Assembly (NCBI RefSeq): GCF_034092395.1
Contig: NZ_CP139301.1
Span: forward strand, 1,116,001-1,180,000
Reading direction: 5' to 3'
DNA: 64,000 nucleotides
Source: Prochlorococcus sp. MIT 1307
GTDB taxonomy: Bacteria > Cyanobacteriota > Cyanobacteriia > PCC-6307 > Cyanobiaceae
Position numbers and translations under genes: made by a program. Below, in pieces: positions 27,775 to 30,851 of this stretch (position 1 is the first letter of the stretch; every line of letters begins with the position of its first letter). Below the pieces are notes generated by a model. It was not told where the DNA came from and ran no database searches. It worked only from the letters and a program-made list of their open reading frames with translations.

Positions 27775-27846
27775 CTCCCCGGGCGGGATTCGAACCTGCG
27801 ACCAATCGATTAACAGTCGACCGCTCTACCGCTGAGCTACCGAGGA
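27775..27846 (-). tRNA. trnN: tRNA-Asn (anticodon GTT)
   Basis: A 72-base cloverleaf on the minus strand. The acceptor stem pairs TCCTCGG with CCGGGGA (one G-T pair) and the discriminator is G. The D-loop contains AGCTCAGCGGTAGAGC, the anticodon loop ACTGTTAATC gives GTT, and the T-arm is GCAGGTTCGAATCCTGC. CCA is not encoded. It lies only 22 bases after the ABC ATPase gene, so a shared transcript is possible, and a hairpin follows. Confidence 0.97.
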
Positions 27847-28585: not shown

Positions 28586-28867
28586 TTAAGCCTCAAATGA
28601 GAAACCAGGTCTCTTCGTACCACCGGTAGCTGCGGTCTTCTCATAAATTTGCACTGCCAACACCTCCTGAACTAAAAAGGTCACCTTCTTGTCTTCGACT
28701 TTTTCGCAAGTTAATTCAAGAGTTCTGGGCTGACCTTGTTCAATGCACTGGCAAACTTTCCTATATAGGGCTTGTGCATCTCCTAGCTTTTTACGCTGTA
28801 CTGACAACGGCAAAGGACTGAATTTCAATGCCAGTTCGATTACGTACACAAAAAGTTCTGAAAGCAC
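28586..28867 (-). CDS. conserved small protein of unknown function
   Basis: A 93-residue protein beginning (GTG) [20 protein letters not shown] and ending [11 protein letters not shown]. It looks like a conserved picocyanobacterial hypothetical but I know no function. It has one moderately hydrophobic N-terminal helix, then a mixed alpha/beta segment rich in V-Q-E-V-L-A-V-Q. Three bases upstream of the ABC ATPase, so the two may act together. Confidence 0.7.
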
Positions 28868-29052
28868 TTAATCATTCTTACCAATTACTAGCCCTCTTTG
28901 CCCCTTTACATCTATTTGCCCATAACTATCAAGAACACTAATTTTCCGTTAGGATTTTTTTGCTTTGGCAATAGCGATGTGACTCTGTTAATTGCTTAAC
29001 AGTGGTCGAACGCTTCGTGAGTTGTCTTTATTCCCCAAAGGAGGAGGTGTCA

Positions 29053-29106
29053 ATGATTGAGAGCTGTATGAACCAGGGTCTGCTGATCGCGGAGAACGCC
29101 GACTGA
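29053..29106 (+). CDS. possible 17-residue leader peptide with near-perfect Shine-Dalgarno
   Basis: ATG at 29053 opens 17 codons, M-I-E-S-C-M-N-Q-G-L-L-I-A-E-N-A-D, then TGA. AAAGGAGGAGGT ends five bases before the ATG (29037-29048), far stronger than any other ribosome site in the window. This suggests that the peptide, or its translation, matters within the candidate RNA. It is too short for family recognition. Confidence 0.35.
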   Translation: MIESCMNQGLLIAENAD

Positions 29107-29161
29107 TTTCGGCACCTGTTCCTTGATCAAACGGTTCCGTGACATAGCGAACCCGGCAAGA

Positions 29162-29197
29162 GCCCCTGATCTTTTTCAAGGTCAGGGGCATTGTTTT
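29162..29197 (+). terminator. intrinsic-terminator-like hairpin
   Basis: GCCCCTGATCTT pairs with AAGGTCAGGGGC (one G-T pair) around a four-base loop, followed by ATTGTTTT. On the opposite strand the loop is GAAA, a GNRA-type loop. Directly after it, 29190-29207 is the perfect palindrome ATTGTTTTATAAAACAAT. Confidence 0.6.
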
Positions 29198-29261
29198 ATA
29201 AAACAATCTCCATTTCTAAAAGTTAAGATGCAAAGATTTATTTTTAGCTATTAAATAAGTC

Positions 29262-30851
29262 CTAGTTGATCAACTTCTTCAATGGTATGAAGTATGTATA
29301 GTTAGGGGGATTTGGACAACCAGACAATTCCTTATTACAATTAAACTTTTCAATAAGATGATTTCCTTCTGACTCCTCTAATTTGATATATGTTTCTTGC
29401 CATTTTAAACTGCCAACAATATATTCTGCCCCTTGATTATACCAATAATTCAGATTATCTTTGTTGACTTTTTTTGCCGAGGTTAACCATCCTTGACGCC
29501 TTGCTAAATTTAGCAAAGTAGGGTCAAGTCCTGTCACCGATACTATGCGAGATTGAGGCTGTACCTCCTCTCGAATATTGTTAGCTAATGGCATCCAGAT
29601 TGCAGCCTGACTTCTTTCAACTAAATAATAGTCAAAAGAAAGTACTACTAAGCTAATGGCAGTTATCAATGCAAGAACTAATTGCAAAAATACCTTAGAG
29701 AGTCTTCTGTAACTCAACAAACTCTCAAAACAGATCCAACCGCGTCCCATCAAAGGGCAAAGAAAAAGTTGTAGTGGTAATTGATAATATTCATGCACTG
29801 AGCTTGATCTCATTGCAAAAACTGTACAAATAAACATCCCAACTATTCCTGCCTGCAAAGTTTGCCCTTTTGCTTCTTGTCTACAGCTCATAAAGCCAAA
29901 AACAACCAAAGGCAAACCAAAAATAGATAGATTTCTCAAAGTTATTCTTAACAAGAGATTAGACCAAACCTGAATATCAAATAACATAGTTAGGCTGAAT
30001 CTATCAGTATCTTTACCCCATAGAAAAAAGCTAAAGCCGCTTGTGGAGCCAAGTCCATATGAATATCTAAACCAAATCAAGCAAATCACAATTGCACTTA
30101 ACCCAAAACACCATACATAAGGTGAACTCAACAATAGATAAAAACGTCTATAGACTTCTATTTTTGGTCTTTTATGATTCTTGTCCAAACCATACAAGTG
30201 CAGTGCAAGTAATGGTAATCCGAGCCAAAAAATAGGTAGTAGTTTAATCAAGCAAGCCAGGCAAAATGCAAGCCAGCTAAGAAGTAGAGATAAGAATTTC
30301 GATTCACTTTTCCAATCTAATAAGCGATCAATACTTATAGCAGCCAAAAGAATAAGTAATGACTCTGCTTGAAAGGTTCTTCCATAGTAAATATTCAATG
30401 GCAATATCGCAAAAAATAAGCCGCCCCACCATCCACTCTGTGGATCAAATATACGTGTACCAATACGAATTACTAAAAAGATTGTCAGAATGCTGAAGAA
30501 AATTGAAAGACCTCTCCCAATCCATTCATGCAAACCAAAAAGTTTATAAAGTTGACCTACTAAATACGGATAAAGTGGAAATTCACAGTCGACATAACCT
30601 GCACTAGCACCAGCCCAATCAATCTGAGGAAGCCATATAGGTGTTCCCTCTAAAGCAAAATGCCTGGCCATCGCGGCTGTATCTGCTTGCCGCCAACTAT
30701 GAATACCTACTATGGGTGCTTGAACATTAATTAATCTAAATAAGAGTCCTATTAGTATTGGGAACCAATATAAATAATTAACTGTAGAGTCTGTTTTCTT
30801 CACAATCAATGTGTATGCCAAACAAAACGAGAAGAAGCGACATAATTCCAA
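29262..30851 (-). CDS. membrane glycosyltransferase, GT-C fold (GT39/ArnT-like)
   Basis: Up to 529 residues with about 11 hydrophobic helices. The first external loop has H-S-W-R-Q-A-D-T-A-A-M-A-R, the position of the catalytic acidic residue in protein mannosyltransferase and ArnT relatives, which move sugars from polyprenyl-phosphate carriers to envelope acceptors. A periplasmic C-terminal domain follows the last helix. The frame opens at TTG 30851, overlapping the previous gene by 46 bases; a GTG at codon 17 may be the true start. Second of three clustered membrane glycosyltransferase genes. Confidence 0.75.
   Translation of the reverse strand: MELCRFFSFCLAYTLIVKKTDSTVNYLYWFPILIGLLFRLINVQAPIVGIHSWRQADTAAMARHFALEGTPIWLPQIDWAGASAGYVDCEFPLYPYLVGQLYKLFGLHEWIGRGLSIFFSILTIFLVIRIGTRIFDPQSGWWGGLFFAILPLNIYYGRTFQAESLLILLAAISIDRLLDWKSESKFLSLLLSWLAFCLACLIKLLPIFWLGLPLLALHLYGLDKNHKRPKIEVYRRFYLLLSSPYVWCFGLSAIVICLIWFRYSYGLGSTSGFSFFLWGKDTDRFSLTMLFDIQVWSNLLLRITLRNLSIFGLPLVVFGFMSCRQEAKGQTLQAGIVGMFICTVFAMRSSSVHEYYQLPLQLFLCPLMGRGWICFESLLSYRRLSKVFLQLVLALITAISLVVLSFDYYLVERSQAAIWMPLANNIREEVQPQSRIVSVTGLDPTLLNLARRQGWLTSAKKVNKDNLNYWYNQGAEYIVGSLKWQETYIKLEESEGNHLIEKFNCNKELSGCPNPPNYTYFIPLKKLIN

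Follow-up and report, generated by a model that had tools for sequence, protein, structure and literature searches.

A structured small RNA of Prochlorococcus, with orthologs across Cyanobacteriia, may be selected for translation of its mini-ORF rather than for the encoded peptide

We identified a structured RNA element on the plus strand of a 64-kb stretch of the Prochlorococcus sp. MIT 1307 genome (hereafter, the window), in the gap between two minus-strand genes (28586-28867 and 29262-30851). Comparative sequence analysis identifies the element as an independent gene for a small RNA, predicted to be transcribed as one RNA, and as the picocyanobacterial ortholog of an RNA family that occurs in single copy in almost all Cyanobacteriia. 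We lean towards a model in which this structured RNA is selected for being translated, not for its peptide, with the ribosome driving a switch between alternative folds. The features of the element are listed in Table 1.

Table 1. Predicted features of the RNA element, in window coordinates
Feature	Position	Strand	Description	Basis
Whole RNA	28962-29199	+	~238 nt, both ends inferred	Alignments and covariance models R1 and R2
-10-like box TAGGAT	28950-28955	+	TAnnnT across homologs; predicted transcript start ~28962	
5' hairpin P1	28967-29026 (28967-28984 with 29004-29026)	+	Inner loop CGAA conserved	RNAalifold, 38 sequences
Ribosome-binding sequence AAAGGAGGAGGTG	29037-29049	+	13-nt tandem; AGGAGGTG nearly invariant among homologs	
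Mini-ORF MIESCMNQGLLIAENAD	29053-29106	+	17 codons and TGA	Open in 106/107 distinct homologs
Helix A, 5' strand	29076-29101 (29076-29084, 29088-29093, 29098-29101)	+	Inside codons 8-17	Pairing across 119 homologs
Helix A, 3' strands	29132-29155 (29132-29141, 29146-29154)	+		Pairing in homologs
Hairpin B	29132-29140 with 29147-29155	+	Alternative pairing of helix A 3' strands	Predicted fold
Terminator stem	29162-29173 / 29178-29189 (part 29155-29199)	+	12 bp	Strong two-sided changes
Terminator stem extension	GGCAA 29155-29159 / TTGTT 29191-29195	+	Followed by U-rich end	Homolog alignment

The 17-codon ORF, the Shine-Dalgarno (SD) sequence, the hairpins, and the 12-bp stem with ATTGTTTT directly 3' of it, all reported in a first-pass annotation of this DNA, are present in the sequence. 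The description of the element as GC-richer holds for the RNA itself (49% at 28962-29199, versus 41% in the window) but not for the full 394-nt gap, which has a GC content of only 41%. The folding energy lies below that of all 200 dinucleotide shuffles (z = -4.0, 0/200), and the element is far beyond chance because it is conserved in more than 100 genomes. The TAnnnT motif occupies the -10-like position in 114 of 139 homologs, compared to 44 after shuffling, and a search for a two-hexamer sigma-70 promoter at this box yielded no match. Together with the covarying stems and the conserved terminator stem, the promoter-like box backs the earlier suggestion of a ~235-nt small RNA; a dual function of this RNA is only a possibility.

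The ribosome-binding sequence had been singled out as the strongest in the window, which is correct only in part. With the assumed anti-SD AUCACCUCCU, the predicted pairing energy of the site is -14.0 kcal/mol, and six other places in the 64-kb window, to which this ranking applies, are lower (-15.2 to -16.3 kcal/mol). Most of these places have no ATG at ordinary spacing, the exception being 56697 on the minus strand, and the 13-nt tandem in front of the ATG stands out as exceptional. The 16S-end pattern GGATCACCTCCTTT was searched in the genome without a match, and the anti-SD was therefore used by assumption.

At the DNA level, the element matched 115 of the 201 genomes of the family, two of the weakest matches being confined to the far end of the gap, outside the RNA. 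The element is single-copy in its own genome and essentially so in the others (one copy per matched genome, two in one genome). An exact 22-mer is common to 104 stretches, among which the named records belong to Prochlorococcus, Synechococcus, Cyanobium, Vulcanococcus, and Aphanothece; one contig containing it (L096) is labelled as a Bifidobacterium breve MAG and is presumably a misbinned cyanobacterial contig. Both the stems and the mini-ORF, which the first-pass annotation had proposed to compare across relatives, are kept. Covariance model R1, which scored 168 bits in the own genome, gave weak full-length matches in other families when searched over the class. Eleven of these distant matches were aligned separately to obtain model R2, which contains no picocyanobacterial sequence, matches 327 of 390 Cyanobacteriia genomes in 146 of 160 genera, and recovers the window copy with unchanged coordinates (38.7 bits, E = 9.8e-11). 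In a scan of the phylum, none of the matches listed lay outside the class, which is a weak negative given that the size of the non-class sample is unstated. The R2-matched genomes presumably include Gloeobacter violaceus, G. kilaueensis, Thermosynechococcus BP-1, and S. elongatus 6301. We take one matched genome to be that of MIT9313 and an unmatched one (G010) to be that of SS120; no match was found in the sampled g18 genomes, which look like high-light Prochlorococcus. Two kinds of divergent copies were noticed: a second, degenerate copy (L060; G034:C1:2023817-2023976) located ~5 kb from a good one, with the ribosome-binding sequence lost (GAAAATTGG) and the ORF disrupted, and a small group (L041, L062, L064, and L065) with TAG stops and a shortened post-stop region in which the inner arms are missing.

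The 107 distinct picocyanobacterial ORFs start with ATG (64) or GTG (43) and end with TGA (100), TAG (4), or TAA (2), one being frameshifted. Stops are absent from the variable codons, versus a mean of 19.6 in permuted columns, and 1.4% of the permutations reach zero. In these alignments, selection keeps the stems, the start, the frame, and the stop. Among single changes in the free (unpaired, variable) codons, 74% are nonsynonymous (0.74), compared to 76% (0.76) expected, as estimated from nearest neighbors and not by a full tree-based test, so that the peptide in the variable codons looks unconstrained. The conserved half of the ORF, whose nucleotides hardly vary and are paired, is constrained as RNA. 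Distant members carry AGGAGGTGAT as the ribosome-binding sequence and encode similar peptides (M..SS..MG..V..RLCAGAVL), mostly of 23-24 aa (n = 51), with 16-17 aa in six of the 51, S. elongatus-type members included; their stops are 30 TAA, 18 TAG, and 3 TGA. The window member, with 17 codons and TGA, resembles the member in the presumed S. elongatus genome. Overall, the length of the peptide varies from 16-17 to 23-28 aa, and the short forms terminate at a point past which the long forms continue.

The cyanobacteria-wide family to which the element belongs is very likely ncl0160, matched here by its published profile and not by sequence. This RNA, named in Synechocystis 6803 and reported with homologs in 83 cyanobacteria in a study of predicted small RNAs of Nostoc, likely encodes a 23-25-aa peptide behind a ribosome-binding site, with ATG or a few GTG starts and 47 TAA, 34 TAG, and 2 TGA stops (PMC4734099). 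The identity is likely because the distant family has the same profile of ORF length, ribosome-binding site, and stops; both are phylum-wide RNAs with a ribosome-binding site and a short ORF. The window form differs in having 17 codons, TGA, the 5' hairpin P1, and the tandem AGGAGGAGG, and the low number of TGA stops, only two, suggests that picocyanobacteria are absent from the published homologs. If the family is ncl0160, this cyanobacterial RNA and its mini-ORF have been described once already in the literature; the picocyanobacterial variant, the single-copy phylum-wide status, the anatomy of the switch, and the linkage to psbD (see below) appear to be new.

Several other candidates were considered and rejected. 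Yfr103, which like the element is found in picocyanobacteria and has a strongly conserved structure, is 290-328 nt long, has several paralogs in each marine Synechococcus genome (seven in CC9605), and is present in SS120 (PMC5069720). Compared by description, the element occurs essentially once per genome and is unmatched in the presumed SS120 genome. Yfr6 is similar in length (~240 nt) and also contains a short central ORF (33 aa), and is found in MED4 and SS120 with no signal in MIT9313 (PMC1242208); the element shows the opposite pattern, absent from the presumed SS120 and present in the presumed MIT9313. The cyano_tmRNA model matches elsewhere in the genome (1229942-1230226). The covariance search that the first-pass annotation had recommended matched no Rfam family: with Rfam 15, there was no gathering-score match for the window copy or for six distant loci, the sole such match within the window being a tRNA gene at 27775-27846 on the minus strand. 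A cyanophage origin was dismissed after no matches were found in viral contigs or phage records. Codon-level conservation of the opposite strand, named earlier as a possible refutation, did not materialize, any given minus-strand frame remaining open throughout in just 7-18 of 151 homologs.

Folding of 38 picocyanobacterial sequences with RNAalifold revealed compensatory changes in 25 of 52 predicted pairs, above all in P1 and the terminator stem; P1 was seen in picocyanobacteria and was not recognized in distant members. Helix A, which joins ORF codons 8-17 to 29132-29154, is paired in 98-99% of the cells across 119 homologs, versus 9-66% for slid registers, with 14 double-change cells, two-sided changes being few because the sequence barely varies. 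Hairpin B is 87% paired, one constant mismatch included, requires a shifted register in the window copy, and is the predicted fold of the 3' part once the ORF half is omitted. Among the 35 distant members for which the two motifs were both located, GGGUC can pair within the start-codon hairpin in 32 and with a downstream GACCC in 27, both pairings being available in 25; this start-codon hairpin is mostly lost in the window copy. Mutually exclusive pairings thus recur in picocyanobacterial and distant members, in different forms.

Under the model we favor, ribosomes would load onto the mini-ORF and translate it, and the act of translation would be what selection keeps. A ribosome passing or stopping on codons 8-17 would open helix A, freeing its 3' strands to form hairpin B, and the RNA would thus exist in two shapes, translated and untranslated. 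As a conjecture, the shape would set the stability of the RNA or expose a 3' segment to an RNA or protein partner.

A simple mRNA encoding a functional micro-peptide, with stems that only stabilize the transcript, would explain the conserved frame, start, and stop, the strong ribosome-binding site, and the resemblance among the distant peptides. We nevertheless consider it unlikely, because the amino acids in the free codons change at a neutral rate, the length of the peptide shifts among members, and the conserved half is nearly frozen as nucleotides and base-paired; the neutral drift in the free codons makes a peptide function in the conserved half less probable. The dual-function RNAs SgrS/SgrT and SR1/SR1P, likewise structured small RNAs that also hold a small ORF, act through the encoded peptide itself, whereas the free residues of the element drift neutrally. 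It is similarly doubtful that the element is a trans-acting base-pairing small RNA whose mini-ORF merely controls turnover: the longest nearly invariant stretch belongs to a helix and an ORF and not to an open seed, even though the anatomy resembling an independent transcript, the terminator, and the conserved loops would suit such a function, as would the place of the distant family among predicted Nostoc small RNAs (PMC4734099), if it is ncl0160.

The gene neighborhood bears on another alternative, in which the element acts in cis as a leader or an attenuator or derives from the psbD 3'-UTR. Distant genomes often have the codirectional order psbD, RNA, pterin-4a-carbinolamine dehydratase (PCD) gene, with psbD stand-alone, and in two S. 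elongatus-type genomes the order is 93-aa gene, psbD, RNA, PCD, a relative of the 93-aa gene lying upstream of psbD. Some relatives have the 93-aa gene on the minus strand, psbD and the RNA on the plus strand, and a PMT_2-type gene on the minus strand, and the window has the 93-aa gene (minus), the RNA (plus), and the PMT_2-type gene (minus). The 93-aa gene (28586-28867, minus strand), for which no Pfam match was found, has stayed close to the RNA in genomes ranging from the S. elongatus type to Prochlorococcus. The window genome contains only one full psbD, which does not adjoin the RNA; thus, the RNA-adjoining copy appears to have been lost in this genome, and the RNA, if active, acts independently of psbD adjacency. 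Although psbD upstream and PCD downstream in many distant genomes fit a cis-acting role, this role is highly improbable: in the window, psbD is not adjacent, the downstream neighbor is convergent, and no downstream gene is suited to attenuation, and the RNA retains a TAnnnT box and a terminator stem of its own across many different neighborhoods.

Returning to the translation-driven switch, the psbD neighborhood hints at a connection to photosystem II. Quite speculatively, the RNA could be a sensor of ribosome activity, in which translation of the mini-ORF, whatever its peptide, switches the RNA from one conserved fold to the other and thereby signals the translational state to some other process, perhaps expression of photosystem II (psbD).

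The RNA had no match in the most streamlined Prochlorococcus sampled. As it is retained singly across most of a photosynthetic class, presumed Gloeobacter included, a general role of this RNA is likely and, if our reading is true, the combination of a conserved frame with drifting free residues would offer a clean case in which to test selection of an RNA for its translation instead of its peptide.
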